From Xestospongia bergquistia (lineage: Eukaryota > Porifera > Demospongiae > Haplosclerida > Petrosiidae): a stretch of DNA of 64,000 nucleotides. The stretch's first letter is position 1; each line of letters begins with the position of its first letter. The position numbers were made by a program, and so were the translations under genes. Shown here one piece after another: positions 1 to 49,049 of this stretch. The notes under the pieces were generated by a model that was not told where the DNA came from, searched no databases, and saw only the letters and a program-made list of their open reading frames with translations. The DNA is taken from the NCBI GenBank assembly GCA_963965975.1, contig OZ014418.1, forward strand, positions 570,501 through 634,500. Direction: 5' to 3'.

Positions 1-277
1 TTAGTAACTATAGCTGCTGTTATTCCCAATAAAAAATTTTAATTAAAGGCTGTTTTGTGTATATTAGATATTTTGTATGCTATATAATTGTTATAAATTT
101 AATTATTATCAAAGTCGTTGCTAATTGGAAAGGGACTTTGATGTATGAAAGTAGGTACTTGCTCCTCCTATTTAGAGGTATGTAGGTATCAGGCAGTAAT
201 GTTAATTATGCTATGTCTGAATAACTAATATAATGTATAATACAATTATATTACGAGTGGGAGGTGTCATCATTGTT

Positions 278-1447
278 ATGCATTCAATTGAACTTTCTTC
301 CTTCAATATCTCCCATACCGGTTTCTTACCTCAAGAGCCGCAATTATCAAGACTTCCGGATCGCTATGAACAATGGGAGACCATTATTGATGTACTACCT
401 CACCTATTGAAAGAATGGAAATTAAGAGATAAAATCAAGGAACTTCCTCTCCTTCCTGTCTCAGATAGCTGGTTACCAACTGAACAACATTGGCAAAGAG
501 CATATTGTGTGTTGACCTTACTCTCTCAAGGCTATTTATGGGAGAGAGGAGAAAGTGGGACAGTTGACACCCTCCCTCAACAACTAGCTATCCCATGGTA
601 TGAAACATCGTTTAGATGTGGTCTACCTCCAGTAATTACATATGCTAGTGCAGTCTTGTGGAACTGGAGTTTGAAAGATCCTGATGAACCAATTTCATTT
701 AATAACTTACACACCATATTTTCCTTCACTGGTGATCGTAGCAAAGAATGGTTTTATCTTGTTCATCAGGGCATTGAGCTAGAACCTACAGTTAGAGTGA
801 AGGCAGCTGTTGATTGTCTAAAAGCTGTAGCACATCAAGATAACAATTGTATTGTACAATGTCTTAACAAAGTTGCTGAGGGTATCAAAAATATGGTGTC
901 ATATTTGGTGAGAATGTATGATGAATGCAAGCCTGATTTCTTCTACAACAAAATGTGTCTATATCAAGCTGGTAGCAATAATTTAATTGCACTCTCTGGT
1001 GTTCTAATATTAGAAGGAGTTGATACTGACCCTAAAAAGTTTATTGGTGGCAGTGCTACACAAAGTCTACACTCCCTGAATTTTATATCTTACTGGGAGT
1101 AGAACATCATGGAACTGATGATAAAGAATTTCTAGACATGCAAAAATGGCACATGCCATGTTCACATTGTCAGTTCCTTGTCACTCCAACCCTCTCTGAG
1201 AGAGTATGTTCAGCATCATAGATCTAATGAGGTCTTAGTAACAATCTATAACAACTGTATTAAAGAATTGGGTCACTTTCGTAGTCAACACATTATATTA
1301 GTAACACGATATATTGTGGGTCCTGCCAATAAGCAAAACATAGAGAGGAAAGAAGGTACATTAGCTACTTGTGGAACAGGTGGATAAAATTTCATGGTGT
1401 TTTTGAAAAATGTTCGTGATGATACACTTCACTGTATAATTACATAA
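278..1447 (+). pseudogene. Indoleamine 2,3-dioxygenase-like pseudogene
   Basis: IDO family enzymes are cytosolic haem dioxygenases that open the indole ring of tryptophan. The reading frame from the ATG at 278 carries family landmarks in order: FLPQEP near the N-terminus, LPPVITYASAVLWNW, FTGDRSKEWFYLV, and FIGGSATQSL. The frame then breaks near 1085. LLGVEHHGTDDKEF continues in another frame, a second shift near 1180 leads into LREYVQHHRS and FRSQHIILVTRYI (with the haem-ligand His), and the final GTGG motif is cut by TAA at 1385, after which FLKNVRDDT follows in frame. So it has two frameshifts and one stop. No intron is seen, although neighbouring genes are intron-rich, so a retrocopy or naturally intronless gene is possible. 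The family call is strong; loss of function is inferred from the breaks. Confidence 0.85.
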
Positions 1448-1542
1448 GTTGCTATGGCAACAACAACGTATAATGCTAATATTTTATTTACTAGACAATA
1501 ATATTATACATTGATTTTTTTGCTTTGATAAAGCTTTCTTGA

Positions 1543-3100
1543 TTAGTATTCTTTCTTCCAATCAATGACATATTTAAGAGGACAATTGGAGAGGTACCTT
1601 GATATTTGATCAGTGACCAGTTCTGCTAACTGTTAATAAAGAGAATTAAATAAATCATTTGACTAACAGAATATTACTGACTTCATCAACTTGACCAACA
1701 GCAGATACATGTGGAGTAATAGTCACCTAATAATATATTATAAGATATTACAGAACAAAAGTATAACTTACTCCTGGAAGGTCCCACAGTTCACTGGTTG
1801 GTGGGAGGGGCTCTGTTTCAAACACATCAAGGATTGCACCACTTAACCATCCAGCTCTATATATAATAATTATTAATAATAATGTTGTCATGACAACAGA
1901 CCTCATAGCTTTTAATATACTAGCTTCATCTGTAACATCACCTCTTCCAACATTAATAAATACTGACTTCTGTATTATCAGAGATAAATAAAATGGATGG
2001 ATTGATGGTATTAACCTTTGGTGAACAATGTTTAAACACTTCTCCACTAAGTAAACCACGAGTATCAGAAGTACTAGGTAATACACTACATACATAATCT
2101 GATGTCCCTAACAACTCATGTAACTCATCCAGTAATCTATTAGACAAAAGGGAACATTGATATCTTGTCTGGTACAAGGGTAAGTTACTTATGTTGGTCA
2201 ACATAAGGAATCCTCTTATCCGAGGGAACTGGTTCTCTTGTTAAACCCAATACAGTCATACCAAATTGTTTACATTTCTTAGCAACTAATGGTGTGACAT
2301 TATTAAAAACAATAACAATAAGGTTATACTCACTTTCTTTTCCAATATTCCCTAGACCTATGATTCCAATAGTAAGTGTAGAGAGACGCCTGTATTGATT
2401 ATATGATCTGGTATTCCTTAAGAGAAGTATCTTAATAAACTAATATTTATTCACTCTCTCTCACCAAGTAAGGTCTTTTTGATCACATGACATACGTAGG
2501 AACTCCCTTTCTCTTGCCACTATCTGTCCTATTACATACTCTGCCATATGATCACCATAAAATGCACCATTTCTTGCTACAGGATAACCAGGTGGAGACT
2601 ATAAAAATTAAAAGACACTTCATAAAATATTGCTTTGATTCCTTACTTGTTCTTTAATAGCTTTCAGAAGTAGCTCAATACCAGCAAAAGTACTTTGTAA
2701 AAACTTTAAATGGCAATCTCCATTACAAAATACACCTGCACAACCTTCAAAAACAATTGGATCAGTTACTACAACATCAGAAGTTGATAACCATGACTTT
2801 AACTCTAGCAAAAGAGGACAATGATCATTTAATATATAATATATAATGTCAATGTTGTATTAGTTAATAGTTTAGGTTTGGTTGTAATATGTAAGGTGGT
2901 AGATATCTAATTCAGCCCCTCCCACTTATATCTATACCATCTTGAGCGGGAAGTTGATCTTGTTTAAGGTCATGATTTACTAACTCCACTTTGTTCAGCA
3001 ACTCTTTCTTCGTCAGTGAAGTAAAAATAGACTTTGCTAGAGAGCCTGGTACAACAATAGTAGCATTGCTTGCTAATACAGCCACTCTCAACTTGTTCAT
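1543..3100 (-). CDS. D-2-hydroxyacid dehydrogenase, copy 1 (about ten exons)
   Basis: A D-isomer-specific 2-hydroxyacid dehydrogenase (glyoxylate/hydroxypyruvate reductase or phosphoglycerate dehydrogenase-like) that should reduce 2-oxoacids with NAD(P)H. Exon 1 is 2938-3100 (MNKLRVAVLASN), exon 2 2647-2804, exon 3 2465-2598, exon 4 2334-2389, then short exons to the stop at 1543. Spliced in order they give the NAD-binding motif GIIGLGNIGKE, the substrate/catalytic Arg motif INVGRGDVTDE, the Glu motif DVFETEPLPP, and the catalytic His in ITPHVSA. The protein ends near VIDWKKEY. All splice sites used are GT-AG and the phases agree. Total length, about 330-340 residues, is normal. It converges on the IDO-like pseudogene. 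Substrate cannot be told from sequence. Confidence 0.85.
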
Positions 3101-7039: not shown

Positions 7040-8510
7040 TTAATAGTTCTACATCAGTAACAGTAATGTATGTTCAAAATTGCATTTTGTACAATCAATC
7101 GCCAGTAACATAAGTTACTCCTGTTAATGCAGCAAAATCATTCAACAAGATCCATTCATGCTTTTCTATCAATCAGATGAAGGTTTGAATGTACATGCAC
7201 TTTTCATATAGAAAATGTAAACTGCAGGCAATAGAAACAACCACTGTCTATGTCATCTATTATATGTCTCACTACTTGGACTACCTAACAGATGAAATGA
7301 ATACTACAACTATACTATATGGTCTGTTTGAAGAAAATGATTTCAGGTCATTCGAGTGTATACAGACATCATAATGGGCTATTAATGGCAAAGGCATTAA
7401 CAAAGATCAGGACATTGTCCCTTCACAAGATCAATGTACAACTGAGAAGTTAATATTAGAAGTACCTGAAAGACTTACACCTACTAAAGAGAGATAAAAT
7501 GGAGCCTCACCTCTTTCCTTATCTCCACTTCCAGAAGGGAGTTGACCCCTGTCCCTTGTTGCTACTGATAATATAGATTTATTATATCCAAAACCTGCTT
7601 GACTGGTATTTTTAACTTTGTTCTTATAACTTATTATTTATCTGGCTTCTCTTGATTTACCATTGCACTTTTTAAAAGCTTAAAGTTATGCCACCACTTC
7701 TTATAAAATTGAGACATAAAAATATGAATGTCCATTTCTGTATTAACTGTTGTTATATAAACAGTCTTAGGTTGACCCTATATAATTAGCTAATTATAGC
7801 TACGACAAGGTAAGTCAATAGCCATTAACTGAAGAAAGTTATCCAAAGCTGGAGGACTTGAAGAACTAAAGGAGCTGTTATAAATTTAGATAATGAAGAG
7901 TGTTTAGGTAATGATTTTTATTTTTTTAAGCCCTATAAAATTAAGATATGATAAAAATTATTATAATTAGTAATGTTGTTCTAGTTTGCTTAAGTAGAAC
8001 TAATTTTCAACTTTTTTGATAGTAATCATAATTATTCATCGGTACCGTTAATGAGATTCATAAGCGTACACAGAGCCGCCCCACAAGAGACTGAAGACAA
8101 AATCTGCAGTACATATAAAAGGAAATGAAAACCACCTTGGATAGGTTGTGTTGTGGGCCAGCGTTCTGCAATGCATCAGACCTCTGAGATGGTTACCAGC
8201 ATACTCTACGGAGTATCCGAAAGGCCGACTAGGATAGGGCTGGTAGTCTCCCTTTAAACGAGAAGAGGCTGGTGTATTTGTGGTTCCCGGTTCCTGAATG
8301 CGATATTCCCTAAGAGCTGGAATCCCGTACGGCTGGTTTTAAGTTAGGGCGATGCTCCAGCCAGGATTACCTCGCGAAGACGAGGGTTACCAAGCCAGGT
8401 GGCGGTCCCAGCTAGCAATAGCAGGGAATCCTGGAGCCTAAGTGGAAGCCTGAGTGGGTGAGCGAGTAGGAATCGTTTGGGCAACACAACATGTTTTTTT
8501 ATATTATTTT
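7040..8510. repeat. Long dispersed repeat, copy A (paired with 53.75-55.14 kb)
   Basis: This stretch aligns over its length, same orientation, with 53750-55140. Outside the GC-rich core the two copies differ by a few percent plus small indels. The shared left part is AT-rich and has no clear gene; the right 450 bases are the structured block listed separately. It is either a duplicated chromosomal segment or a composite transposable element. No terminal repeats or transposase were recognised. Confidence 0.7.
8036..8498 (+). ncRNA. GC-rich structured element, copy A (candidate Pol III RNA or SINE)
   Basis: About half G+C by eye in an AT-rich region. Predicted hairpins read directly include ATACTC-TACG-GAGTAT (a UNCG-type loop) followed by CC-GAAA-GG, both enclosed by ACCAGC/GCTGGT; CCTCG-CGAAGA-CGAGG; and GGCTGG...CCAGCC. 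A TATA-like TATAAAAGG lies near 8116, about 25-30 bases before the GC-rich part begins, and the block ends in a T-run after GGGCAACACAACATG. That layout resembles a type 3 Pol III gene of about 345 nt, but this is inference. No long open frame. It did not match my memory of 7SL, 7SK, RNase P/MRP, U1, U2 or U3. Copy B at 54.7 kb differs by one substitution in about 450 bases. Confidence 0.55.
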
Positions 8511-9915
8511 TAATTAAAATCTTAACTTTATTTTAAACTACAAGAAATGTCAGTCAATCCAAAGTAAAGTTAATGTTAATTTTTAGTAGCCAGCTAAGAT
8601 TAGTAGAACTACTACTAAATAGAGAACAACAATACATAATAAAATAGAACTATGAATTGGAGAAGTTAGAGATATCGAGAGACATTTGACGACGTATGAT
8701 ATGGCAGGAATATTTTATCAGAAATTCATGAAATGGGTGTTGCAATTACAGATGCCATGAATAATAGTATCTGACACAAATAATATATCATTCTTTTGGA
8801 AGCATTCCTAGGAAACATTCCTGTCTTTAGACACTTCTCCTAGTTTAAAGGTACCCATTAAGTTGTTCTTCACTGTTGTATTATAATTTGCAGGTAAATA
8901 GCAATGCATTAACTGGAAAGAAAGAAGATCATGTAAAACAGCATGGCTATAATTTTATTTCCATGAATACGCGCCTATAGTTTTGCATCTTAACTTAACC
9001 AGGGACATTCTCTTATGAAGGTGATGTTACCAGACCAGCTGGTAAAATATTATTAGTATAAATCTTTCATATAATAATTTTTAATTGGTTTGACTGGTTT
9101 AATAGATATGTTGAAATCCTGATATGTCATAAAAAATTAAAGACATGATATTCAAGACACATCAGTATCATTATGATTGAAGTCATAATACCTGACCACT
9201 AATATAGATTTTATTTATTTTTTAGGAGCAATTAATATTTACATTATTTATATTTTTAAGTGTCTAGGTAGCCTGTAAAGAAACACCATACTTTAATGTA
9301 AAATTAATGTTTTTCATGTTACTTTTTATTTATGAAATAAATACATTTACATGTATTTGGTGTTCATTTTTGCTGGTCGAGTTTGAAAAAAATAGTAAGA
9401 AAAAATTATAGACTTCATATCTTGATACTATGATATTACAAGTGTCACATATACTACAATAAGAGACAATAGATATAAACATGTACATGTTTATTTGTAC
9501 ATGTACATGTAAATAAAGTAACAAGTCAAAATAAGTTAAGGTTCTATCTCCAGTGAGGTTGGTATTGGTACAGTTGTACTTACACCTACTCATAAAACAT
9601 TTAATTATATAGAACTTTAGATGTACCTTCATTGCACTTGTCTTTTGTGCATTAAGTTCTGTGTAGACAGAGTCAGACAAATAGTGTTGTACCTTACATG
9701 TACTATTCCAAAACTAAATGCAATACTTGATAACTACATTTGACAATTCTGTAATACTGAGTGTGACACTAAATAGTATAGTTAGTTGTCTGCTTGTGTC
9801 AAAAATATTTGTTTTATTGTGTTAATTTCATATTACTAATGTGAAGTATCATTGTCTCTTAATTTTTTGTTGTTTAAAAGGTCATGGTGATGATGAAGTA
9901 AGAGAGAAAAGAGAA
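8511..9915. other. AT-rich DNA, repeats only
   Basis: No gene recognised. Contains a near-palindromic ACATGTACATGT cluster near 9480-9512. From 9692 to 9842 it holds the direct repeat of 6851-6997. From 9860 to 9915 it has a short piece matching an exon-like segment at 55345-55398 (coding for HSDDEVREKRE there). Confidence 0.5.
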
Positions 9916-9962
9916 GTGGGTGAGTGAGGAGGGATCGTTTGGGCAACACACAAGGTTTTTTT
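9916..9962 (+). repeat. 5'-truncated 3' end of the GC-rich element
   Basis: GTGGGTGAGTGAGGAGGGAT followed by CGTTTGGGCAACACA and a T-run matches only the last 45 or so bases of the structured block (8453-8498). It interrupts sequence homologous to 55360-55400 exactly after AGAGAAAAGAGA. A truncated copy with an intact 3' end is what target-primed retroposition of a SINE produces. Confidence 0.6.
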
Positions 9963-10104
9963 ATATCAAAACAACGTTACAATTATTATACAAAATATGT
10001 AATATATCATGTATATATACTATATCCAACACCTTAAAGAAATACATGGTACATTATCATAGCAATATAGAAGTAAATTAATGTTTATTATCTCTCTCTT
10101 TCTC

Positions 10105-15749: not shown

Positions 15750-16703
15750 ACACATCTTAATATGTCCCATGATAAAGGGGACATGTTGTATGCTGCACAT
15801 TGTCTGTTGTTGAGAACTAATTAAAAAGTGATTTTAATTTTTTTTATTTTTAATTTCCAACCATCAAAGTATGTATGTTATCTGATGAACTAATTAATGT
15901 GGGTGTTCTCTCACTACCTACAATACGTTGTAGGGACAACGTATCATATTTTGAATATAATACAATTACTTTGCCCTCGTCTTTTGTTTCCATCTGATTC
16001 ACAAGCTCTGAATAAAATTCTGAATATGTGGGTGGAGCATAAAATACTAAGTGATGAATCCCTCGGAAATGATATCGTCGAAAAAAGTGGAGACGTTCTG
16101 TTATTAGAAGAAATTTTTTGCGTCCATCAGCAAAAAAAGATCTAGCTCTTGAGACGCTATCAGATTTAGTATACCTAATAAAATATTGAACACATTCAAA
16201 TGTAAATCTTTCATATAGTTATGATACATGAACTTGTTGTTTAGTATAATTATAATTAATTAATTAATTAATTACCATAAATGTCAAAATTTTCGAGGTA
16301 GTTATATTTTCGCGGTTGACACAAAATGCGAAAATATGAGTTTGGGAAAATTTTACGTGTGAAAGTTTGAGCAGCGAAAATTTTGACATTTACGATAACC
16401 AATTATACTATATGAGGAAATATTTTTGCAATAAAAATATTTCATAATTCTTCCCAAAGTACAAACTTTGCATCCTCCTCATATAAAGCTATATGCAAAA
16501 CTATTTGTATATATTGTATGACTATATTATAACAACAAATAGTTATAGTAATCACTGCTAATTGGATCAGGGACTTCCTCATATTGTAAGTTAACCAAAC
16601 CTTATATGGTCACAAGAGCAATAATGTAGTTGCCATCGTCAGTATTTGATAGTGACATATTGTATGTATTCAAACATCATAACAATATTTCCTTTTTAAG
16701 AAC
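15750..16703. other. Intergenic DNA with a small MITE
   Basis: No convincing gene. A short open frame at 15897-16145 has no recognisable domain. Holds an AATT microsatellite at 16250-16275 and the inverted-repeat element listed next. The left edge of the large segmental duplication lies at about 16470. Confidence 0.5.
16277..16396. mobile_element. 120-bp MITE with nested palindrome
   Basis: Terminal inverted repeats ATAAATGTCAAAATTTTCG and its near-perfect complement CGAAAATTTTGACATTTACG. Inside lies a second inverted repeat, ATATTTTCGC/GCGAAAATAT (about 16307-16340). No coding capacity. Very short MITEs of this kind are mobilised in trans; superfamily not determined. Confidence 0.7.
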
Positions 16704-19179
16704 TTACTCTGAAATATGACTGAAATTATATCCTTCTCTTTTGAAGTGGTTACGTAATCGGATAAAGTCAAAATATGATGAAACATAGATACAGACGTGG
16801 TCAACTGATGGACTCAATAATTTAGGTAATACCTTAAAAACAAAAATTAATCATATTGCAGTCTTTAGTTCTTACTGTATCAATGAAATATTGAAGCCTA
16901 ATTTCTGGCAGCTGGTGATGATCAGGAGAAGTGAGTCTATGAAATATCTGAGGGACTGGTTGCAGTATCTGACATACAGATCCTTTCCAGACGGGGGTAT
17001 GCACCCTTACCTGACCCTCATAATCTAACACAATAGGTCAAGGCAGATAAAAACAGAAATATCAGATACTTAGAACACTGCCTCTTCAGGACATTTGTTC
17101 TAGTTCCAATGAATATTTCTAGATATCATTAACCTCTGCACATGACAATGGACTAAGAGTATGTCACAACTCTTAAGGTGTCTGCTACAGAGATGTTTAC
17201 ATTTAAAAGTTTAGATAATTCACATTATAAGGATACTGTGGCAGTAAGTGGTGATTAAGGAATTAATTTCAGGAGTTGGAAATGCAGAGAAGACAAGAGT
17301 CTGACAATAGTGTTTACCCCAACAATTTAACGACCATTCTCTTACTCTTGAGAAATCCACACCATGACTGTCTATAGGTTTTAAATGAAGATGATTGAAC
17401 AAGTGCTAAAAATAAAATAAACATAATTAATGGGCGTGGTTAACCACACCCACCAGAACATGATCCCAATTTTGCATTAGAAGCACATCAATTTGATCAA
17501 CAATAACCATTTCTATAGAGGAGAGGAAGTCATACTCTCGTTTCTTATCTCCTTCTCCTCCTATAATTGTTCTTAGACCAAGTGGAGATGCTATGATAAT
17601 GTCACTAGAATAAAAGGTAGTATAAAGTTTGAGTCTATTCTTTTTAATAGCCACGCCCATCTTGAAACAATCATCAGTATTACCAGAAAATAGATGAAGA
17701 TAAGAATCTAGAGAGATAATAGATTAGAAGCATTTGAAAGACTTCTAATACTTGGTTTATAACTTGGTGGAGTGCTCTCTTCCCCTTCCTCAAATTGTTG
17801 AAAAAACTTTTTACGATTTGCTACTTCACCCTGTGGTAGTAAGTCATAACAAACCACACCCACTGAACATCACATATATACCTTTCCAGGTTTTATAAGT
17901 ACATCAATCAGTGTCTTGACAATTTTCAGAACTGAACTTCGAAATGGAACTAGAATGAGAACTTTAGGACGAGTCAACCCTTGGTCTCTAATTTCTCTAT
18001 AGAACAAACAAACTATACTTTAACACATCATAACAGCTTACCCTAAATCACGACCATCCTTAGCAGCTAATGTGAGACGAACATTGTTCTTTAGAACACG
18101 TGTTCGATTTCTAGAAAGTTATGTCCATATCATCTCATACACCCCACCCACTTACTTAATAACATGATTTAATAAATGTAACACATACAATTGTCTAATC
18201 TCCATCTCATTGTCATGTGATTGACATGTGAAAATGAGATCCTGGGAATGTTAATTGTAATTAATGGGTGGGGCTTAGTTAGTACCTTGTATGAATTCAT
18301 AATATCGAACAGATAATGCTGTAATGAAGTAAAAGGTTCTAAATAGGTGGAGTCAATGGGTGGTGATTGGAACTTAGTTACATACTTTTAACACTTGTCT
18401 TGTTACTCATAGGCCATAACGTAGCAATAGGTTCTCTCACCTGATATAAGTACATGTACATTAGTTACATGTACATGTAAATCTTACATGTAAAAATTTT
18501 AAAGGACGTGTGATGGAAACTTGATCAGGTGGAGACCAGGTCTTATTACAAGTGGGTGTGGTCAACCATTGGACCAGACCTAGCTCTTTACACTAATATT
18601 GATAACCAATATAATGGAGAGATCATATTACATATGATGGACTTACATTATGACAACTGAGTGGGAGTGGTTGTGAGTATAGCTCATTTAAAGTTGTCAC
18701 ATGAGCTTCATCTAGGATTCTATCATAATGAGTAGAGAATGGCTCCTCCCCTTGAGCCACACCTATTTCGTCTATTAAATCTTCCTCTTCATCGTCTGTA
18801 TTAAGACATTCAATGACATCATCGTTCTAAAAAAGATAATTATAAACATCTTACATAATTATTACCTCAACATCAACGTCAAATTTAGTATTTGTGGGTG
18901 GGGACTGTTGCCGTGGGAAACTATACTTAGACTGTGTAGGAAGGGAGTTCAGTAGGATTTCATAGGCAGTGGGTGTGTCTTCCTAAAATACATGTACATA
19001 GTTGTAGTAAGATTATTACATATCTTTACCTCATCACTAGAAGGAATGGTTTCTAATTTTGGAAGAGATAGACGTTTGTTTGATGTAGGAATGTCTCTCT
19101 TCCTCTGAACAAGGCTTGAATAATAATATTACTGGTATATATGATTAAGACTAACCTTTTTACCTGCTCTGGTAGCCAT
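16704..19179 (-). pseudogene. UTP25: UTP25 (DEF/DIEXF)-like gene, copy 1, frameshifted and C-truncated
   Basis: UTP25 is a nucleolar small-subunit processome protein with a degenerate SF2-helicase fold. The spliced product starts [19 protein letters not shown] at 19179, passes an acidic segment (about 18780-18830) and reaches the hallmark [19 protein letters not shown] and MQNWDHVL (about 17460-17610), then [12 protein letters not shown] and [21 protein letters not shown] 1-base deletion near 17718, relative to copy 2, shifts the frame before the hallmark region. The sequence ends at a GTAAGT splice donor (TAA at 16704 if read through). The conserved C-terminal part (the family's YTK...R segment and beyond) is not found downstream. 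Probably a non-functional duplicate of a gene located elsewhere. Confidence 0.8.
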
Positions 19180-19235
19180 AACCTGTCGTGTTTACTTTTT
19201 CGAAGCAACAAGGGACTAAGCCAGGTTACTGTGAA

Positions 19236-19432
19236 CCACGTGTCCTCAAATGTTAGCTTTATAGTATACGGACTTTGCAAAATTATAACTCCCATTACAT
19301 TCTTATATAAATTTCAGAACGTTCCGTTCACGTCTGTAATCGTTTCTCATGTTGTAATAAAAAAGGAAAATTTTATTAAATTAATTTACATCAATACAAA
19401 AAACGGAATATGAGATTTCTAAACATAAAAAC
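19236..19432 (+). repeat. Dispersed repeat of about 190 bp, copy 1
   Basis: The segment beginning GTCCTCAAATGTTAGC and ending GAGATTTCTAAACATAAAAA recurs at 27491-27689, 31730-31915 and 41880-42078, always on the + strand. Shared internal text includes GGAAAATTTTATTAAATTAA. The two copies inside one duplication unit differ more than the copies at equivalent places in the two units, so the family is older than the duplication. Confidence 0.75.
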
Positions 19433-19455
19433 CAAGTTACTGTGAACCGGGTACA

Positions 19456-19534
19456 TCCCATGAGATCAATTCCCACGAGATCAACTCCCTCATAATCAAC
19501 CTTTTTTGATCAATCCCGTGAGATGAACTCCCTT
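19456..19534. repeat. Degenerate GAGATCAACTCCC tandem repeat
   Basis: About five imperfect repeats of a 14-17-base unit of the type GAGATCAACTCCC, partly inverted (GATCAATCCCGTGAGATGAA). The same array is at 31940-32020 in unit 2. It lies between the divergent UTP25-like and death-fold genes, and its origin is unclear. Confidence 0.6.
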
Positions 19535-20092
19535 TGAACAATTATTAAATAATGTCATACTATCTTAACTAACATCAGCTTTAGTGTCTTTGAGCAATAA
19601 ACTTTAGCTTATCAAAATTTGGTAATAACTTTCTTCACAAATATAAAAGCTCTTTCATTACAAACACAGACTGTACAGTTACATTTCCCAATTGTAAGTT
19701 AGTATGACTGAATTTGTTGAAACAATATTTTTCTTCTAGCATCTGCAGAAATTCTAACAACATTACACACACAGTGTATATAACTAATAAATATTGCTAT
19801 ATACCCAAAGTGTATGCTTCAATTTTTTCTTGGGTAACGTGTCTCACTCCATAGATTCCAGTTGTTGCCTCACGTATTCTCTAGCAACTGACAAGTCCAT
19901 ACTGATAGCCATAATTGTTTAAACTAGCCCGCCACTAGCTCCCAGTATTAAGGAATATATGGTATAGTATACTGTACCATCATTTGTACTTAACGAGCCC
20001 CACCCCCTACAAATGTCAATAGAATATGAATATTGTTATTTGTGTGCTCTCACCCGTTAAAGCAACTAAGGTCAGCGAACACAGAAACAGTT

Positions 20093-23000
20093 ATGGCAAA
20101 GAAACAAATTGATGCAAAGCTATTAATATCCTTTCTGGGTCAGGTTCAACTAGGTAAGTAGATAGTTAATTGTCTTCTTTACTATTAAGTATGAGGATTG
20201 ACTGTCTGAGTCATTATTGAGTATTTTAAACTTATTTCTCAGATATCACTCATTTAAGTGCTGTATTTGAAGCTTTGAAGAAACATATGTTTTCATATCG
20301 AAGATGGTTTGAGTTAGGTCTATTTTTGGGTATACTACAGCCTACACTGCAAAAGATTGAAGTGGATCATCGTGATGATGTAGTTCGATGTCTTCAGGAG
20401 TGTTTAACTTGTTGGCTGAGAAGAGTCGATCAAGTTAATGAGAATGGAAGACCATCATGGGATGTACTAGTTAGTGCTTTGAAGAAGATGGAAGAAAATT
20501 ATGTGGCTGAAAATATCACTCAAACAGGTATAATATGATCTTAGGATTATGATATTTATGATTTATTTATTAGTGGAAGGACAAATCCAGTCTGCTGGAC
20601 AAATTCTGATATATCCTGCACAAATGTCACAGCTGTTATATAGTGAGAGATGCATCACTGAAGTGACCCTTGATGAGGTGGAGACACTAGAGGGCATGGT
20701 TGATTATAAGAGAAAAACCCTCTTGTTTGCTATACGTAATGCAGTGTCTTCTGATCACAAGAATATCAAAGTGCTAGCTAAAGTGTTGTCTGAATTTGAA
20801 GAGACAAAAGAATTAGCTGATAAACTACTCAATGAATATGGTAAGTTATCTGTTGTTAATTAAAGATGACATTTCTCTCATTAATTGTATAGTTCAAAAG
20901 TTTCCAGAGGATGACGACATTTCAACAATTCCTCAAAATACATGTAGTCATCAACAATCTGCTAGTGATGTTCTTCGTTGTCACTATGGTACTTTGTCCA
21001 AGTCTCTATATGATCCTATTAGTGTTGGGTGGCTACTTTGTGAACAAGATCCAATGATAATATCAGAAGAAACACTTACTAGTGTTGAGTTTATAAGGAA
21101 ATGTGAGTCAGAGAGAAGGGTAGTCTTATTGAGAGCTGTACGTTGTGCTGTATGTAGTAACTCTAATAACTTGGAAATATTTGTTAATGTGTTATTAAAG
21201 TTCTCTGAAAATGTGCTGTTAGCTAAAGCTATTTGGAATGACTACAGTAAGTAATTAAATTACATTAATGAATATTAAAAATTTATGTCCATAGATAAAG
21301 AGATTGAAAGAAAAAAGAAAGATGAAGAACCTTTAACAGATGAGGGTATAGTCAATATAACATATCGTAGATTGAGAAAATTTCGCACTACAAATACTGT
21401 AAATATTTCAATGTGTAATAATGTTCGTGTAATTAATTTTCATACACCGTCCAATGTTTGAATTTTCTTTAACAATGAAACTTTCCCAATCTACGGTAAT
21501 ATATAGTTATAATAGATATAGGAGGGCTATATTATTTGACACTCATTTTAAGATGAGGTGGATCAGTCCTCTTAGATCTGTTATCATGTGTTATAATAAG
21601 TGACTAGCGCAATTGTATGTGAATATTATTATAGTAACCAATATTCATAGTCCATCCACTCACTCAATAAAAAATTATAATTCAAATACATAATGTGTGA
21701 AATTTTGTACCACATTTAGTTACAACAGAAGTATTAGTACCTTTGGATATGGCACCAACATTTACATCAATCAGAGGAGAATTTGTGAAAGCTGTTTTCA
21801 ATATCCGTTGTTGTATTACTAAGAGTCAAGCGTCTACAAAAGAAGTTAAAAGTTTACTTAATGGTTTCCCTGAACTGAAACCAGAGTTATCTAATGCAGA
21901 AACAATGGATGATATATTGGATATTGTACGTGACAAATGTACACTGATTAATATCAGTTATTTAGAAGTTGTTGTGGACCAGTTTAACATTGAAGATGCT
22001 AAGGCATACATTGAAGAATATAAGGATATCATTGAGAAGTTCTCTCAGAAAGTAGCTATTAAATTATGTCTTGGTGAACGTTTCCAGATTACACAAAATC
22101 TTCTTCCTCTTAAATGTGAAACAGCTAAGTTTGTTCTCGACTGGAATCCAGAGAACACCACTTTGAATGATGTTAGAAATATTTTAGCAGTATCATTTCA
22201 GAAATTGGAGAAGTCTGTTAAAATTGATGTCATCAAAAAAAGCAACTCCTTCACTGTGACCTGTATTTTTCCTCTCCACCTACTTGCACGACTCGTTAGC
22301 ATTGCTCAAGAGACTATTGAAGTTGTAAAGAAAAGAGGATTAATCCGACTTATAATTGGTCCTTGTATCATTTGGGATATCAACAATAGAGATCAGGTAT
22401 ATATATAAATTTACACTACAACAGTATCCATGTATTGTTGATATAGGAGATGAAATCTTTGGTGATGGAGATAAAAGAGAACCAGAAAAAATTTGAGAAG
22501 CAGTTGGAGACACAGTATGTAATTAACAGGAGAAAGACTTTGGAAATTGAAGATTTGAGAGCTAAACTCAAACAGCAGGAAGGTAACAGGACTATAATTG
22601 TAAAAATCATCCTTTAAAGATGGTACAGTAAGACATTGACTATGAAAAGATTGCATAAGACATCCAGAGGCTAGCAGCAAGGAAGCAAGCTAGTTAGAAG
22701 CCTCCAACTCTGACAAGTCACATGACCTTTAATGTAATGCTTGTATAATATAGGATCTTAATCATTGACTGTAAATCTGTGATTTGAGTAAATATATATT
22801 TAAATGTTATTAGTTTGTTGTTTTAAATTGACATTCAACAATACAAGCTGATGGTATACTGATATATCTATTACTTCATAGCTCTAAATAACTATAGGAT
22901 TGTTTACATGTCAGGTAGTAAAGGTATTAATGTTTATTGTTATATTGTAATTGTTACATTATAATGTTTTGTAATATTAGCTGATAAAGTGGAGTTCAAG

Positions 23001-26000
23001 TCAGAGACACAAATGTCAGAATTAAAGAAGAAAGATGAGGAGATCAATGCATTAAAATTAGCTCTTAAAGAAAAAGAAAGTAAGGAAACATGAATTGTCA
23101 CAATATAACATGTAATAGTGTTAATGTAACATGTAATATATAATGTTATATAGTGGATTATTTAGACTACACTGGGTTAAATAGCAGTGAATTAATTTTA
23201 CAAAGTTTTTACCACCACACCCACACATTATATTAGATTCATTTCTTAATATGAAGTTTATAATTTATTATTTCAAATACCAATTTACAAGCAGTTCATT
23301 ACCAAATTAGCTCAACATTGATATAAATTAGTGTTTATTAAAAAATATTTTATGTATAATATTATAGTGTATTAGGTAATATTGAGGTATAATATATTTT
23401 ATAGAAACTGTTCAAGAAATATTAGACGACAAACAAAAAGATTATGTTAAGTTGAGAACTAAACTTAAAGTACAAGAGATAACAATTAATGAGAAGACAA
23501 TGGAGATAGATGATTTAGAATCAATTCTTAAAGACAAAGAAGGTATATATCATTACAAATACTATATCATTAACTATACTCTATTTTAGTTGAGTTACAT
23601 TTATTGAAGAAGACATTAGAACAGCAACAAGTAGAGATCAAAGAGTTAAAGTCTATTCTTCAAGAACCAGATGTTAAAGAAAAGTTTCCACAGCATGTAC
23701 AGTCTGTACCTTCTACTAGTGAAGGTAAATTTAATACAAGTATAGCTACACTATATTTTAAACCCTTTAATGAATTTTTTGCCAAATTAATTATAAAATA
23801 TTGCAATCAACTCTTTCAATGATGTTTATTGTTACTATATACCTTTGTTGTCACACCTATTTAATATAAATTGGACACACCCACTGAATTTCATTTCATA
23901 TTATCAATAAATCTAAAGTAGTGATATAATAGAAACATTTATTGTTTTATTTAGTAGAGTCAGAGATGATAGTGTTGTCAAAATTAACAAAAGATGACAT
24001 ACCAATAGAAGCAGAACCAGAGGTTAAAGAGAAGCCATTACAGTCTCTATTTACAAGAAAAAGTGAGTAAATGTTATTGTTTTAATTGATATATTTAGTT
24101 TTAATATACTTTGTATCAAAAGACCCATAATCTTAAAACACAACACTCTATTTATAGAGATGTAATCATGAAAAAAATGAAACCTAATGATAAGAGTATT
24201 ATGTGTTATTGTTAGTATAATAGAGTAGTAGTGAGATCTATACTGAGGAGACCATTTTTATTTGTTAGAGTCACAGCCAATGAAAGATGACATTCCAATA
24301 GAACAAGAAGATAAGGAGACGTCATCTAGTCTTCTACAAGATCCAAAAGGTAATATATGTTACTATTTTAGTTAACTCCATTATTGTGTTCACTGTTAAA
24401 ATATTCATCATCAAAGAGGTCATAGACCATCATCTCATCCTCAGCTAGCCTCATACCCAGTCGTTTGCAAAGAAAAGAACACCTGGTAACTACTGTTTGC
24501 ACATGCACATAATTTCCATAGATTTCTTGGAAAATAGTATATTCTAGGAATCCTCTGTAAACTATGACATAAAATTCCTTTTACCCACAATGTTCTACTA
24601 CTATCTACAATGACTACCTATAGTGCATATAGTATAACTTCTCTGCTGCTCTACTCAACAATCTAGGAAGACTAACTCTATCTCTTAAAAAGAGCTTTTT
24701 ATCCATTGAAGCTGTATATGACAGAAAAGATGACTTAGTCTGGTTACCAACTGATTTTGGAAAAAATTTGCATACCCAAGTCCTCTCATTGATGATGGAT
24801 AACAAGGATGGTCTTGTTGGCACTGAGAAGAGCTGCTCTGCATTGATAATAAGTGAATAATTATGCACATGCGCAAGCAGTAGTTACCAGGCATTCTTTC
24901 CTTTTACAAATACCTGTGTACGAGGTTAATCCTCAGGTTAACATACTCCATTGTGAAAAATAGTTTGGTATTTTTGCTTGATTTTCATGGGACAAGATAT
25001 AATATTTACATTGGTAATGTTGTGGCCAATGAAATTACTGTTCAAATATTGGGAAATGAATATTGTTATATTATCGCATGACATCTAAAACTAGAGTTAC
25101 TATTTTTAGGAACAGGGCCTGGAATGATAAATAATATAATTCAACATTTAAGACTTCTTGTTACAAGCCAAAACACTTTGTACTGTACTATACTGTGGAA
25201 TGTGATAATTACTTCATGTGTTTAGTGACTTAGTTACTTAATAAGTGAGTCCTACCTTCATATGTGACTGATGTAACAGATTACTGTCAGCAAAGAGTCA
25301 TTTATGATAATTGTGTCAGCATAATATCATAAAATATGTACAGTAGGAATAGCTATAAATGACCAAATCTTTACTATCTACTGTTGTATACAATGTCTGC
25401 ATTATATCAAACATGACTAAACTCATATTAGTAGTACTGAACAAACTAGTCAGATCAATAGCTATTATAAAGTACATTAATGATAGTAAGATCATCATAA
25501 CAATACTAATTAGTAATAATTCAGACTAATTGTTAAACTGTTTACTTATCATGTTAGCTTTGTAATCATGTGTATCAAACATGATTATCCTAGTTTCTTA
25601 AAGAAAAAGATGGCAATAAATCTATAGATTATTAAAGTAGCTCCACCCACTTCATCTGCAGTGATATTTTCATTATTATATTACAGCACTACATTTAACA
25701 AGTTGGTTTGCATTAATAGTAACCTAACACTAGTAATGACGTCATCTTCTTCGTTAGGCCTTGACAATCGTATTTGAGCATGTTAGAGACTGAGTGTATG
25801 TATAACTATTGTTGTGTGTGTAAAATATTAAATAGTAACTATATTTTATTATAGGAGACACTGGAAGTGTTAAGTGGTACAGTGATAGAGTTATACTTAC
25901 TTCATCTACTGTGGCACAATGTAAAGAAGTGATACATCAATTAAAGAGACGACAACATACAACATGGTGGATTGAACTCAACACATTATCTCCTCAAAGT

Positions 26001-26417
26001 TTACTAACAGTATTAACTGATATTAATAAATGTCAAGTGAGGGTACTTTATATATGGAACACTCATTTTGATAGTAACTGTATCAGTCAACTATCACAAG
26101 TAATAACTTTTAACAAAACAATGGTGGTCCTACGTCTTTGGTCCTCACCTCTCTTACCAAATACTTACCAATTACTAACAACAGCTCTAACTAATAATAC
26201 AATAATCAAGGTATTACACTTGTATTATGATACTACCATTACTGATAATGATATACCACATTTCTCTCATTTAATTAATAATAATAATACATTACAAGAA
26301 CTAGATCTCGCTGACTGTACTAATATTACTAAATTTGGTATACAACAATTACAAAATGTTGTTGTTAATAATAATAGTTTGAAGATATTGTATGTTAATG
26401 GTAATAGACTCCGTTAA
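20093..26417 (+). CDS. Death-domain / CARD-like / coiled-coil / LRR protein, copy 1
   Basis: About thirteen exons, all GT-AG: 20093-20153, 20243-20527, 20574-20840, about 20893-21246, about 21296-21343, about 21719-22396, about 22447-22581, 22982-23080, 23405-23541, 23590-23724, 23957-24062, 24270-24349, and 25856-26417. The product is about 980 residues. An N-terminal death-fold domain (WFELGLFLGILQPTLQKIE) is followed by two similar alpha-helical CARD-like repeats (RKTLLFAIRNAVSSDHKN; RRVVLLRAVRCAVCSNSNN). Next comes a 220-residue module (RDKCTLINISYLEVVVDQF ... LIRLIIGPCIIW), a charged coiled coil over exons 7-12 with Lys/Glu heptads, and a C-terminal ribonuclease-inhibitor-type LRR tail (NNTIIKVLHLYYD, NNNTLQELDLADCTN, NNNSLKILYVNGN). 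No NACHT or kinase motif is seen. Likely a cytosolic innate-sensing or cell-death adaptor; function is inferred only. The first ATG follows a short 5' leader. Confidence 0.75.
21362..21505. mobile_element. Short MITE in an intron of the death-fold gene
   Basis: Inverted termini TATCGTAGATTGAGAAAATT and the complement of AACTTTCCCAATCTACGGTA bound about 145 bases. The same element is at about 34970-35345 in unit 2, where an extra 235-base insertion splits it. Confidence 0.6.
24448..24930. mobile_element. MITE of about 480 bp in the last large intron
   Basis: Long imperfect inverted ends: the left contains CACCTGGTAACTACTGTTTG then CACATGCACATAAT (24480-24513), and the right contains its complement ATTATGCACATGCGCAAGCA then GTAGTTACCAGGCATTC (24859-24897). 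Homology extends outward to CCTCATACCCAG / its complement. The unit 2 copy (about 38257-39010) carries a nested insertion. No coding content. Confidence 0.65.
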
Positions 26418-27859
26418 TTATTAGTTATTTTTGTACTATTGTTATTGTTGTATTTTTAATAAAAAAAATTATTTTAAATTCCAATAAGTCAATTATTAAT
26501 TAAATACTTTAGTTTCCAGTTCTTTGTCTTCTAAAAAAGTTAACAATTTTTATAATTCACTTCTCTAGAAAAACTCAACTTCTCTACTTGACAATTGACC
26601 ACACCTACATTAATTAATAATAAAAGCTTATTTCTAATATTTACAAATACAATTATAACAAACAAACTAGACTAAATTGTACATTAATAGTCCTCTAGTT
26701 AGTAGATATATAAAATTAAATATTATCGCTACGTCTAATACCACTAATTAGTAATTACTACTGCTAATAAAAAATCCATTAATTAAAGCCAATTAATTTG
26801 TCAAATCACTTAAAAACTTATTTCCTACACACAAAAATTCACTTAACAAGTTGTTATATTTAATAACACGTTCTATTTAATAATACACTCACTTTTAACA
26901 ATTCCATTAAAGTACTGATCCATACAACATCAGATGATTTCTTGATAACATTACAACTATTAACTTACTACTAAATAAACTTAGTTTCTATTAACAGTAG
27001 TAGAATGTATCTAGTAGTTAGCAGTTTTGCTAGTTAGTTATCTTCTATCATTAGTAGTTTCTAGTAAAGAAGACTTAAAGCAGTAAAGACTTAAGCAGCA
27101 AACTTTTTCTCACCGACAGCTGCTGGCTCTCCAGCTGCTACTTTAATGGGTGTGGTCTGTAACTATGGAAAAATGCAAACCCGCGAATATACATGGCGGT
27201 AAGTTTACTTAGAAGATTGTTGTATTATGTTTTCCCATTTAAACAGACTGGAGGAAGAGATGATATAAGACACAAAGAAGAAGTAAACAATGTGAGAGTA
27301 GCTCTATGATGGATAGATATAGAAATGTACCTATGATCTATTAATATAATTACAACATTGTCTTCAACATGATGTCCTATTGACTGATTTACAGTCTTCA
27401 TACATAAATTATCATAATATACTTGACCAGGGAGTTTACCAGTAATATTTATTGGTTATTTTAAGAGAATACAGCAGCTGTAATAAATACACATGTCCTC
27501 AAATGTTAACTTTTGAGTTTGCAAAAATTATAACGCGAATTACATTCTTAAGACAAATTTCATAGCGTTTCTGTTCACATCTGTAATTATTTCTCATGCC
27601 GTTTCATTTAATAAAAAAGGAAAATTTTATTAAATTAATTTACATCAATACAAAAAAAACGGTATATGAGATTTCTAAACATAAAAAAGAAACAGCAATT
27701 GATTCCAGCTCTAAACCAGCTGGTCAATTCCATAAATGGTAAAGGAGGCAAATATACAACAAAAGAAGTGAAGCTGTTCTGATAATAATAATTAATGTGC
27801 TAAATATAAATCACTACTCACACTACGATTTGAATTAACAAGTGGAGAGGATATGGAGG
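26418..27859. other. AT-rich spacer between LRR gene and ARP2 fragment
   Basis: No gene recognised. It is matched by 40804-42241 in unit 2 with few differences. It includes a dispersed-repeat copy at 27491-27689 and a possible polyadenylation signal (AATAAAAAA at 26458) for the LRR gene. Confidence 0.6.
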
Positions 27860-28799
27860 TTATGTCTTAACAGCCACACCCAATTTCTCTAACACCCTTT
27901 TGCCTTTCTCTTGGTATTCTTCCCGAGACATCCAGAAACTGTCCTTGTCTTTCATGATATCAGCTAGAACAGCACCACCCAAAAATACCATGTGCTTACG
28001 GCGAGGTGGATCCTCGATACGAATCTTGAATTTCTATGAGAGAGAGAGAGAAAGTGAATAAAAAGAGACATAGGGGTCTGTATTTCTATTCAGCCATTAA
28101 TCAAAACACTATATTAATGTGTTTCTTACTGATAATTTAGTGGTATCTCCCTTGAGGACTCTAGCAAGATAAAGTTGTTTGATTTCTCTCTCCAAACGTG
28201 ATGGCAGACCAGGATACATTGTTGAACCACCACTTAACACAATGTGCTTATAAAATTCAGGCCTTGTATCAATATCAGCTGCTTGAATGGTATTAAAAAG
28301 CAACTCAGCCACACCCACTCTCTCAACATTAATGAGATGAGGTTGGAAGAGCACTTCAGGAGCTTCAAACCTTTCTCCACCAAGTTTGACCACACGACCA
28401 TCAGGTAACTGTACAGAAAAATGGAAAACAAATCTTGAAAAGTTGATAATGTTAAACTTACTGTGTAACTTTCAACTAACACAGTTGTTTCTGTGGCCAA
28501 TTTTTGTTCTTGTTCAACATTATATCTGTTAATGAAAGACAGCTAGAGAGAGAGAGAGAGAGAGAGAATGACTTACGCTACATAACAAAGTTTTTCCTTC
28601 ATCATACGAATAGTCTCAAAGTCAGCTGAGTGATTGAAGGCATATCCTCGCAAGAGAAGTAGTTTAATAAGATAACAAGTTATATCTCGTCCAGCAACAT
28701 CAAGTCGTCGGGTGAGATGAGGGAGGGAGAACCCATCGTACACCGGACATATATGAGTAATACCATCTCCACTATCAATAACCATACCTGTTAATAGAC
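27860..28799 (-). pseudogene. ACTR2: ARP2, 5'-truncated duplicate
   Basis: Contains the last four exons of ARP2: from [20 protein letters not shown] (acceptor at 28800-28801) through [25 protein letters not shown]-like [19 protein letters not shown], and [16 protein letters not shown] to the stop at 27860. Frames are open and splice sites intact, but the exons for the N-terminal half, including the first nucleotide-binding loop, are missing because the duplication junction at 28960 lies upstream. It cannot make a normal actin-fold protein. Confidence 0.9.
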
Positions 28800-29214
28800 C
28801 TGGAAAACAAGAAAAGAAAACAAGTATAACAAGAATGCATTGAGTAATTTGCTAACTATTTCAAACAACAACAATCAATAGTAAGTACATAGTAAAACAA
28901 ACATTACATATCCTTTAATTATAAAAATATTAAATTCTATTTTATAACATTACAAATTTTGCAAAATTGGTCCTCCTTCATATAATGCTATATGCAAAAC
29001 TATTTGTATATATTGTATGACTATATTATAGCAGCAAATATGTCTAGTAATCACTGCTAATTGGATCAGGGACTTCCTCATATTATAAGTTAACCAAACC
29101 TTATATGGTCACAAGAACAAGACTATAGTTACCATTGTCAATATTTGATAGTGACATATTGTATGTATTCAAACATCATAGCAATATTTCCTTTTTATAA
29201 GAACTCACTCTGAA

Positions 29215-31672
29215 ATATGGCAGAAATTATATCCTTCTCTTTTGAAGTGGTTACGTAATTGGATAAAGTCAAAATATGATGGAACATAGATACAGACGTG
29301 GTCAACTGATGGGCTCAATAATTTAGGCAATACCTTAAAAACAAAAATTAATCATATTGCAGTCTTTAGCTCTTACTGTATCAATGAAATATTGAAGCCT
29401 AATTTCTGGCAGCTGGTGATGATCAGAAGTGAGTCTATGAAATATCTGAGGGACTGGTCGCAGTATCTGACATACAGATCCTTTCCAGACGGGGGTATGC
29501 ACCCTTATCTGACCCTCATAATCTAACACAATAGGTCAAGGCAGATAAAAACAGAAATATCAGATAATTGGAACATTGCCTCTTCAGGACATTTGTTCTA
29601 GTTCCAATGAATATTTCTAGATATCATTAACCTCTGCACATGACAATGGACTAAGAGTATGTCAACTCTTAGGGTGTCTGCTACAGAGATGTTTTACATT
29701 TAAAAGTTTTAGATAATTCACATTATAAGGATACTGTGGCAGTAAGTGGTGATTAAGGAATTAATTTCAGGAGTTGGAAATGCAGAGAAGACAAGAGTCT
29801 GACAATAGTGTTTACCCCAACAATTTAATGACCATTCTCTTACTCTTGAGAAATCCACACCATGACTGTCTATAGGTTTTAAATGAAGATGATTGAACAA
29901 GTGCTAAAAAAAAACATAATTAATGGGTGTGGTTAACCACACCCACCAGAACATGATCCCAATTTTGCATTAGAAGCACATCAATTTGATCAACAATAAC
30001 CATTTCTATAGAGGAGAGGAAGTCATATTCTCGTTTCTTATCTCCTTCTCCTCCTATAATTGTTCTTAGACCAAGTGGAGATGCTATGATAATGTCACTG
30101 GAATAAAAGGTAGTATAAAGTTTGAGTCTATTCTTTTTAATGGCCATGCCCATCTTGAAACAATCATCAGTATTACCAGAAAATAGATGAAGATAAGAAT
30201 CTAGAGAGATAGATAGATTAGAAGCATTAAAAAGACTTCTAATACTTGGTTTATAACTTGGAGGAGTGCTCTCTTCCCCTTCCTCAAATTGTTGAAAAAA
30301 CTTCTTACGATTTGCTACTTCACCCTGTGGTAGTAAGTCATAACAAACCACACCCACTGAACATCATATATATACCTTTCCAGGTTTTATAAGTACATCA
30401 ATCAATGTCTTGATAATTTTCAGAACTGAACTTCTAAATGGAACTAGAATGAGAACTTTAGGACGAGTCAACCCTTGGTCTCTAATTTCTCTATAGAACA
30501 AACAAACTACACTTTAACACATCATGACAGCTTACCCTAAATCACGACCATCCTTAGCAGCTAATGTGAGACGAACATTGTTCTTTAGAACACGTGTTCG
30601 ATTTCTAGAAAGTTATGTCCATATCAGCTCATAAATCCCACCCACTTACTTAATAACATGATTTAATAAATGTAACACATACAATTGTCTAATTTCCATC
30701 TCATTGTCATGTGATTGACATGTGAAAATGAGATCCTGGGAATGTTAATTGTAATTAATGGGTGGGGCTTAGTTAGTACCTTGTATGAATTCATAATATC
30801 GAACAGATAATGCTGTAATGAAGTAAAAGGTTCTAAATAGGTGGAGTCAATGGGTGGAGATTGGAACTTAGTTACATACCTTTAACACTTGTCTTGTTAC
30901 TCATGGGCCATAACGTAGCAATAGGTTCTCTCACCTGATATAAGTACATGTACATTAGTACATGTACATGTAAATCTTACATGTAAAAATTTTAAAGGAT
31001 GTGTGATGGAAACTTGATCAGGTGGAGACCAGGTCTTATTACAAGTGTGTGTGGTCAACCATTGGACCAGACCTAGCTCTTTACACTAATATTGATAATC
31101 AATATAATGGAGAGATCATATTACATATGATGGACTTACATTATGACAATTGAGTGGGAGTGGTTGTGAGTATAGCTCATTTAAAGTTGTCACATGAGCT
31201 TCATCTAGGATTCTATCATAATGAGTAGAGAATGGCTCCTCCCCTTGAGCCACACCTATTTCGTCTATTAAATCTTCCTCTTCATCGTCTGTATTAAGAC
31301 ATTCAATGACATCATCGTTCTAAAAAAGATAATTATAAACATCTTACATAATTATTACCTCAACATCAACGTCAAATTTAGTATTTGTGGGTGGGGACTC
31401 TTGCCGTGGGAAACTATACTTAGACTGTGTAGGAAGGGAGTTCAGAAGGATTTCATAGGCAGTGGGTGTGTCTTCCTAAAATACATGTACATAGTTGTAG
31501 TAAGATTATTACATATCTTTACCTCATCACTAGAAGGAATGGTTTCTAATTTTGGAAGAGATAGACGTTTGTTTGATGTAGGAGCGTCTCTCTTTCTCTG
31601 AACAAGGCTTGAAAAATAATATTACTGGTATATATGATTAAGACTAACCTTTTTACCTGCTCTGGTAGCCAT
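29215..31672 (-). CDS. UTP25: UTP25-like gene, copy 2, C-terminally truncated
   Basis: The same exons as copy 1 but without the 1-base deletion, so the central exon is open from about 30330 to 29930 ([15 protein letters not shown] ... [13 protein letters not shown] ... [14 protein letters not shown] ... MQNWDHVL). The start codon is at 31672 (MATRAGKK). The last recognisable exon ends [14 protein letters not shown]-like and runs into GTGAGT, an intact splice donor in both copies, with TGA at 29215 if unspliced. The family's C-terminal segment is missing here as well, so the ancestral unit was probably already truncated before it was duplicated. It may make a shortened protein; otherwise it is a pseudogene. 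Confidence 0.7.
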
Positions 31673-31729
31673 AACCTGTTGTGTTTACTTTTTTGAAGCA
31701 ACAAGGGACTAAGCCAGGTTACTGTGAAC

Positions 31730-31915
31730 CACGTGTCCTCAAATGTTAGCTTTATAGTATACGGACTTTGCAAAATTATAACGCCCATTACATTCTTATA
31801 TAAATTTCAGAACGTTCCGTTCACGTCTGTAATGGTTTCTCATGTTGTAATAAAAAAGGAAAAATTTATTAAATTAATTTACATCAACGGAATATGAGAT
31901 TTCTAAACATAAAAA
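31730..31915 (+). repeat. Dispersed repeat of about 190 bp, copy 3
   Basis: Same family as 19236-19432, 27491-27689 and 41880-42078. This copy has lost a short ACATCAATACAAAAAACG-like stretch near its end. Confidence 0.7.
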
Positions 31916-32136
31916 CCAAGTTACTGTGAACCGGGTACATCCCATGAGAACAATTCCCACGAGATCAACTCCCTCATAATCAACTCTTTTTTGATCAATC
32001 CTGTGAGATCAACTCCCTTTGAACAATTATTAAATAATGTCATACTATCTTAACTAACATCAGCTTTAGCGTCTTTGAGCAATTAAGGTAAAAATACCTG
32101 AAATTTTTTTCAGCTTTTTTTTGATGCAATCATGTA

Positions 32137-33284: not shown

Positions 33285-33701
33285 CAGTTACATTTCCCAA
33301 TTGTAGATTAGTATGGCTGAATTTGTTGAAATAATAATTTTTTTCTAGCATCTGCAGAAATTCTAACAACATTACACACACAGTGTATATAACTAATAAA
33401 TATTGCTATTTACTGAAAGTGTATGCTTCAATTTTTTCTTGAGTAACGTGTCTCACTCCCATAGATTCCAGTTGTTGCCTCACATATTCTCTAGCAACTG
33501 ACAAGTCCATACTGATAGCCATAATTGTTTAAACTAGCCCGCCACTAGCTCCCAGTAATAAGGAATATATGGTATAATATAGTGTACCATCATTTGTATT
33601 TAACGAGCCCCACCCCCTACAATGTCAATGGAATATGAATATTGTTATTTGTGTGCTCTCACCCGTTAAAGCAACTAAGGTCAGCGAACACAGAAACAGT
33701 T

Positions 33702-46430: not shown

Positions 46431-46461
<31 letters not shown>

Positions 46462-48392: not shown

Positions 48393-48479
48393 CTTAGTTA
48401 TGTTTACGCATTATAGTTGCTTGGATACCATTTATAGCATAAGAGGGTGGGGCAGGGAGCCACACCCATTAACTAGACA

Positions 48480-48860: not shown

Positions 48861-49049
48861 TACTTAAAAGCTTTGAAAGGTTAGGGATTTGGGATTAATG
48901 TTATATCTCCAAATGGCAATGGTCTCTACAAAAGTGCAGCAGGTGTGGTCATCTAACTAAATCATATATTTATCCTTTATTATTGTTGATTTATTTCCTC
49001 ATCCTATTAATTCATTTCCTCATCCTATTAATATTTTCTTCCATATAAG

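Follow-up and report, generated by a model that had tools for sequence, protein, structure and literature searches.

The window analysed here is a stretch of 64,000 nucleotides from the sponge Xestospongia bergquistia, spanning positions 570,501-634,500 of contig C8 in a genome that was searched as 146 Mb in 21 contigs. An earlier note, made from the letters of the window, had pointed to a near-identical, G+C-rich block at two sites, and we confirmed its presence at 8036-8498 and at about 54674-55136. The single differing position that the note had reported is 8173, which is the sole mismatch over 8040-8493; small alignment gaps between the two copies lie just 5′ of 8040. The 500-base bin that contains the block has the highest G+C content of the window (0.474, with 0.422 in the next bin), in keeping with the enrichment described before, and the RNA predicted from the block has a G+C content of 0.527. 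The TATA-like box upstream, the terminal T-run, and the UNCG and GNRA-type hairpins with a closing helix that the note had listed were likewise recovered, the hairpins (UACG and GAAA) and the helix as predicted structures. The two copies and the features assigned to them are as follows.

7298-8580 (+ strand): duplicated segment with copy 1, matched by 53935-55218 with copy 2; 1.29 kb, 95.5% overall identity
8047-8062 (+): upstream conserved element GTTAATGAGATTCATA; the ATTCAT motif is also present 5′ of U6, U4 and U2 genes
8080-8087 (+): PSE-like element CCCACAAG, copy 1; a similar motif is present 5′ of U1, U4, U5, U6 and RNase P genes
8097-8111 (+): box ACAAAATCTGCAGTA between PSE and TATA box; both U6 genes found have CAAAATCNTCAGTA there
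8114-8121 (+): TATA box TATAAAAG, copy 1, 34 bases from the start of the PSE
8143-8497 (+): predicted RNA, copy 1, about 350 bases, give or take a few at either end, the putative start being placed from U6 geometry
8146-8154 (+): closing helix, 5′ strand, predicted to pair with 8481-8489
8163-8286 (+): predicted domain I, with a UNCG hairpin (8201-8216) and a GAAA hairpin (8217-8224)
8288-8475 (+): predicted domain II, including a hairpin at 8370-8385
8481-8489 (+): closing helix, 3′ strand
8494-8500 (+): T-run, candidate Pol III terminator, copy 1
9914-9965 (+): fragment of the 3′ end of an old copy, on the same strand as copy 1 and downstream of it
54718-54725 (+): PSE-like element, copy 2
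54752-54759 (+): TATA box, copy 2
54781-55135 (+): predicted RNA, copy 2
55132-55140 (+): T-run, copy 2

Other repeats were also seen in the window. A long tandem duplication extends over 16431-43325, where 16431-28953 resembles 28921-43325 in pieces that are 91-97% identical. A unit that carries similar open frames on the minus strand is present at 46126-58850 in three diverged copies (89-92%), and the one frame of this unit that was tested matches the CD36 family. At 45882-46192 there is a short tandem repeat, open on the minus strand, whose period is roughly 100-110 bases. Of the eight nearby open frames tested, three have matches in Pfam, to families that animals are known to have (IDO, CD36 and MyTH4).

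A count of the copies in the whole genome had been proposed in the earlier note. Using a 40-mer from the 3′ half of the block, we obtained 289 matches with up to three mismatches (159 forward and 130 reverse), which puts the count at 289 or more for this half, and a 37-mer from the 5′ domain gave 680 matches; neither the reversed-pattern control of the 40-mer nor the control of the 37-mer matched anywhere. A 22-mer specific to a second subfamily, designated group B, gave 393 matches at up to one mismatch, among them those in the tandem arrays formed by a short version. For the comparisons described below, a first set of 41 full copies was selected on BLAST rank or on an exact 40-mer match, five of these copies belonging to group B, and a second set of 44 group B loci was chosen by an exact 22-mer. 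Both sets together yielded 84 full-length RNA copies with 61 distinct sequences. Alignment A1 comprises 60 distinct RNAs, with one of the 61 (L074) left out as it is truncated at the edge of its locus.

The contrast between a conserved block and diverged flanks, first noticed between the two copies in the window, stands across the 41 copies of the first set. Median identity to copy 1 was 1.00 in 17 of the 18 20-base bins over 8136-8495 and 0.95 in the remaining bin, values that are biased upward because resemblance to the window copy, or an exact 40- or 22-mer, was the criterion of choice. In the first bin past 8495, the median fell to 0.70. It was 0.85-1.00 over the promoter region (8036-8135) and mostly 0.5-0.75 farther out, where some subsets have longer flanks in common; an identity of 0.5-0.75 might correspond to the chance alignment of AT-rich DNA. 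The group B copies, which had been picked at the 5′ end, are equally conserved at the 3′ end although their flanks differ. When ordered pairs of copies were compared, homology stopped less than 40 bases past 8056 on the upstream side in 653 of 1604 pairs, and less than 40 bases past 8500 on the downstream side in 997 of 1604. More than 250 bases of flank are common with another copy in 36 of the 41 copies, which indicates that segmental duplication is common. Selection or gene conversion, both of which the earlier note had considered, is a plausible cause of the preservation of the block, and recent amplification could account for part of the likeness among copies.

The PSE-like element CCCACAAG is exact in 79 of the 84 full copies and carries a single mismatch in the other five, the TATA box is present in all 84, the spacing between the two is 34 in 82 of them, and a T-run (TTTT or longer near the end) was found in 83. 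In the window, the pattern of a PSE, 26 bases and a TATA box occurs exactly twice, at the two copies, and one further match appears at three mismatches, where the chance expectation is 0.98.

We compared these elements with the upstream regions of known genes in the same genome, namely U1 (four genes), U2 (eight of the 13 found), U4 (three), U5 (three), U6 (two) and MRP (one). An element of the CCCACAAG type is positioned mostly near −59 and a TATA box mostly near −30 in these genes. At most one mismatch to the PSE between −75 and −43 was found in 12 of the 21 known genes, as compared with a mean of 0.17 and a maximum of 3 in shuffled sequences; the U2 genes have two mismatches, with the form CCCCTAAG in most. 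The two U6 genes found have PSE-TATA spacings of 34 and 33, and among the four RNase P loci, which were fetched later as a check, three have 34; the fourth RNase P locus is a weaker match with neither a PSE nor a TATA box. A spacing of 28 is seen in 14 of the 18 U1, U2, U4 and U5 genes, a count that is not made of independent cases since several known snRNA genes are near-identical duplicates. One of the 18 has a spacing of 24, and no TATA box was found near −30 in three. The MRP gene, with a spacing of 20, fits neither the 28 nor the 33-34 class. In addition, a box CAAAATC..CAGTA 5′ of the TATA box is common to the block family and both U6 genes. Because the spacing of 34 in the block is like that of the U6 and RNase P genes, we assign its promoter to the U6 class (Pol III, type 3), and what is established about type-3 promoters makes Pol III the likely polymerase.

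The two spacings, 28 in the U1, U2, U4 and U5 genes and 33-34 in the U6 genes and three of the four RNase P loci, are a candidate rule for polymerase choice in this genome, to which MRP with 20 is an exception. The PSE sequences together with the spacing of 28 versus 33-34 may tell the snRNA-type genes of Pol II from those of Pol III here. It was also observed that RNase P RNA and U4 genes, at 8258235-8275789 and 965620-980217 of contig C5, are each present in three copies on one strand, with about 7-9 kb between copies.

Consensus folding of the 60 distinct copies gave 118 pairs arranged as an end-to-end helix, domain I and domain II. In this fold, which was derived from the same sequences on which the pairing was tested, the share of paired cells is 99.8% and the covariation score 0.015, each of these values being reached by none of 500 shuffles; slid versions of the fold are 35-45% paired. 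Among the copies of this genome, pair-keeping changes speak for the fold, and double changes do not outnumber those of shuffles. With the outermost pair set aside, each change type counted once and kinship ignored, the pair is kept by 13 of the 18 substitution types in paired columns, where 8.6 are expected (P 0.0009). Changes on both sides occurred in a single pair, the outermost one of the end helix, between groups A and B (G-C in 31, U-A in 26 and unpaired in three of the 60 distinct sequences). All 500 shuffles attained this count of one two-sided change, and likewise the 14 pair types seen; the RNAs resemble one another too closely for covariation to be tested strongly. Variable columns make up 17 of the 234 paired and 16 of the 108 unpaired columns (P 0.047, ancestry being ignored), and the folding energy of the single sequence is only mildly better than that of shuffles (z −1.73, 5 of 100 at least as stable). 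Some of the commonest differences reside in loops: UACG alternates with UUCG, and the loop of the hairpin at 8370-8385 is CGAAGA-like in the majority of copies, with others having an extended stem and a UUNG loop instead. One locus (L073) joins the 5′ end of group B to the 3′ end of group A, which breaks the outermost pair of the closing helix; the hybrid suggests recombination between the groups.

An open frame of 96 codons lies on the antisense strand of the block, with relatives of at least 70 codons in 21 of 21 sources and no Pfam match at E up to 1. Nine of its 18 changes are synonymous, nine of the 18 are at third positions, and one of 60 copies is frameshifted. As judged from these figures, a coding role for the frame is formally open. 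We also considered whether the block had hitch-hiked with one gene family, and rejected this, as no flanking frame of at least 70 codons is common to more than five of the 21 sources.

Among the exact group B 22-mer matches listed on contigs C3-C7, 81 of 83 lie less than 1 Mb from a contig end, as do 40 of the 42 clusters that they form; other copies, such as those on contig C1, are more dispersed. On contig C6, matches recur over the first 18.2 kb, spaced by multiples of about 345 bases. The sequences of 1-3000 (L070) and 17400-20400 (L071) of this contig consist of tandem units in which the promoter and domain I are followed by a different 3′ part, a form that we refer to as type C, and contig C6 starts inside such an array of units of about 345 bases. 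The idea that the array is the RNA alone in tandem was rejected because its units carry the promoter and domain I and no domain II. In another type-C array (L072; contig C3 near 11.462 Mb, an approximate position), a unit is interrupted by an insert at about 2105-2965 of the locus. The insert has CAGGGTCTCCA at its start and the inverted form at its end, with the 8-base sequence CCTCTGAG repeated on either side; we take it to resemble a hAT DNA transposon. Partial copies number 18 in the 41-copy set, and 16 of them reach the 3′ end and lack the 5′ end. In the loci that also contain a full copy, the partial copies, 17 in all, are without exception on the same strand as the full copy and downstream of it, and three (L015, L017 and L021) also repeat the downstream flank, an arrangement that looks like the product of unequal exchange.

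The earlier note had offered as interpretations of the block a new Pol III RNA on the one hand and a SINE, or the young part of a mobile element, on the other. The first is backed by a U6-class promoter with matching spacing, the T-run, conservation bounded by the predicted RNA and changes that keep pairs; the second found no support. A SINE or another retroposed element would agree with the hundreds of dispersed copies and with the predominance of partial copies that reach the 3′ end and not the 5′ end. However, the block contains no B box at up to two mismatches, no flanking open frame is common to more than five of 21 sources, and target-site duplications gave no signal in the 120-base flanks of 41 copies, given that the longest repeat common to a copy's own flanks has a mean of 7.15 versus 7.37 ± 0.13 for swapped flanks. 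The promoter, moreover, lies outside the transcript and was copied too, which argues against retroposition of the RNA, and the strand and position of the partial copies fit unequal exchange. Retroposition as the origin of the family is, in our estimate, extremely improbable. One could also envision a repeat that is selfish at the DNA level, that is, a Pol III gene that spread through subtelomeric exchange and tandem amplification while performing no service for the cell, and that is partly decaying to satellite in the form of the type-C arrays. The 680 matches to the 5′ domain, the closeness of nearly all listed group B matches on contigs C3-C7 to contig ends, and the regularly spaced matches in the first 18 kb of contig C6, with tandem units of promoter and domain I and no domain II at 1-3000 and 17400-20400, all speak for such a repeat. 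Scattered copies in dissimilar flanks, on the other hand, retain the whole RNA, the T-run and the exactly spaced promoter, and their changes tend to keep pairs, and we consider a selfish repeat of this kind unlikely.

A further alternative is that the block encodes a known RNA, such as 7SK, SRP or telomerase RNA, that has diverged beyond recognition. Its length and promoter class do resemble those of 7SK. Yet Rfam 15 gave no match in the whole window at the gathering cut-off, and on the block, at E up to 10, it gave only two chance-level matches on the other strand (E 2.5 and 3.1) and none to the models of 7SK, RNase P or RNase MRP; a tRNA scan identified no known RNA. Loci for RNase P, MRP, U6, U2, U4, U5 and U1 were found elsewhere in the genome, the tetranucleotide GATC, which is the HEXIM-binding word of 7SK, is absent from the predicted RNA, and the copies number in the hundreds. 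A search of the genome for 7SK found nothing, and its control likewise gave no signal. We judge it very unlikely that a known RNA is concealed here. A likeness of short words to 7SL, to domain V of group II introns and to self-cleaving ribozymes had been entertained and was dropped because Rfam gave nothing. As for a foreign origin, phages and plasmids gave no blastn match, and prokaryote and viral contigs gave no exact match to one 25-mer, which is a weak test. Among the literature entries listed, none described such a family in its title or in the start of its abstract.

We favour, and consider likely, the view that a structured non-coding RNA of about 350 bases is encoded by the block, which would then be a complete gene and one copy among hundreds. 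It would probably represent a new family of multi-copy, externally promoted Pol III RNA genes that have been duplicated as DNA and homogenised. In the scheme that we infer for polymerase, start site, transcription, ribonucleoprotein role, spread and homogenisation, a SNAPc-type factor would bind the CCCACAAG element at about −63 and a form of TBP/TFIIIB would bind the TATA box at about −29, whereupon Pol III would start near 8143 and stop within the T-run at 8494-8500. The RNA would fold into two large arms joined by the helix of its two ends, and it would most likely serve as the scaffold of a ribonucleoprotein that is required at high dose. The genes could have multiplied at the DNA level through segmental and tandem duplications and through exchange between chromosome ends, while homogenisation and selection on the transcript may maintain the likeness of the copies.

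A more far-reaching proposal, which we advance tentatively, is that the family specifies a small nuclear RNA that would be very abundant in an early-branching animal. The RNA would be a two-armed ribonucleoprotein scaffold of about 350 bases, encoded by up to about 290 near-identical genes with promoters of the U6/RNase P type; group B would be linked to chromosome ends, and the shortened tandem type C would possibly give rise to a short RNA of its own. U6-type promoters usually belong to genes of one to a few copies, and we know of no type-3 Pol III RNA in animals that has more genes than the up to about 290 considered here. The case is of interest in that hundreds of copies of an unrecognised structured RNA carry a U6-type promoter. 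If they are expressed, an abundant ribonucleoprotein may have been overlooked in an animal lineage; if they are not, the family would illustrate how an externally promoted RNA gene can multiply as DNA, something that the usual route taken by SINEs does not permit.

Among known systems, the genes for U6 and nuclear RNase P RNA in this genome have a PSE of the CCCACAA- type and a TATA box 33-34 bases apart (in three of the four RNase P loci), as the block does. They differ from it in that their RNAs are unrelated and in number, with at least two U6 and at least four RNase P loci over the cut-off versus hundreds here. The 7SK gene is usually a type-3 Pol III gene. 7SK is like the predicted RNA in being a metazoan RNA of similar length and unlike it with respect to GATC, which is absent here, and to Rfam, where the block finds no match. 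GATC is the word of 7SK to which HEXIM binds, and mammals have a single functional 7SK gene (PMC8406779).

Two further systems are similar in the way in which their genes behave. The dictyostelid class I RNAs, which are much shorter than about 350 bases, resemble the block family, by their description, in being multi-copy and in having an snRNA-type upstream element, an end stem and a T-run. They are described as multi-copy and lineage-specific, with 126 candidates over several species, a DUSE about 60 bases upstream, a stem of the 5′ and 3′ ends, a T-run and possibly transcription by Pol III (PMC7919456). The 4.5SH RNA differs from the block RNA in that it is about 100 bases long, derived from 7SL and equipped with internal boxes A and B. 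It is encoded by many tandem genes in rodents. Two accounts present this rodent RNA as a Pol III RNA of narrow taxonomic range (PMC10137851, PMC3440375), and the title of one states that its complementary ends lengthen the life of the RNA (PMC3440375). We would place the predicted gene nearest in kind to the type-3 Pol III genes and nearest in behaviour to the class I RNAs and 4.5SH RNA.
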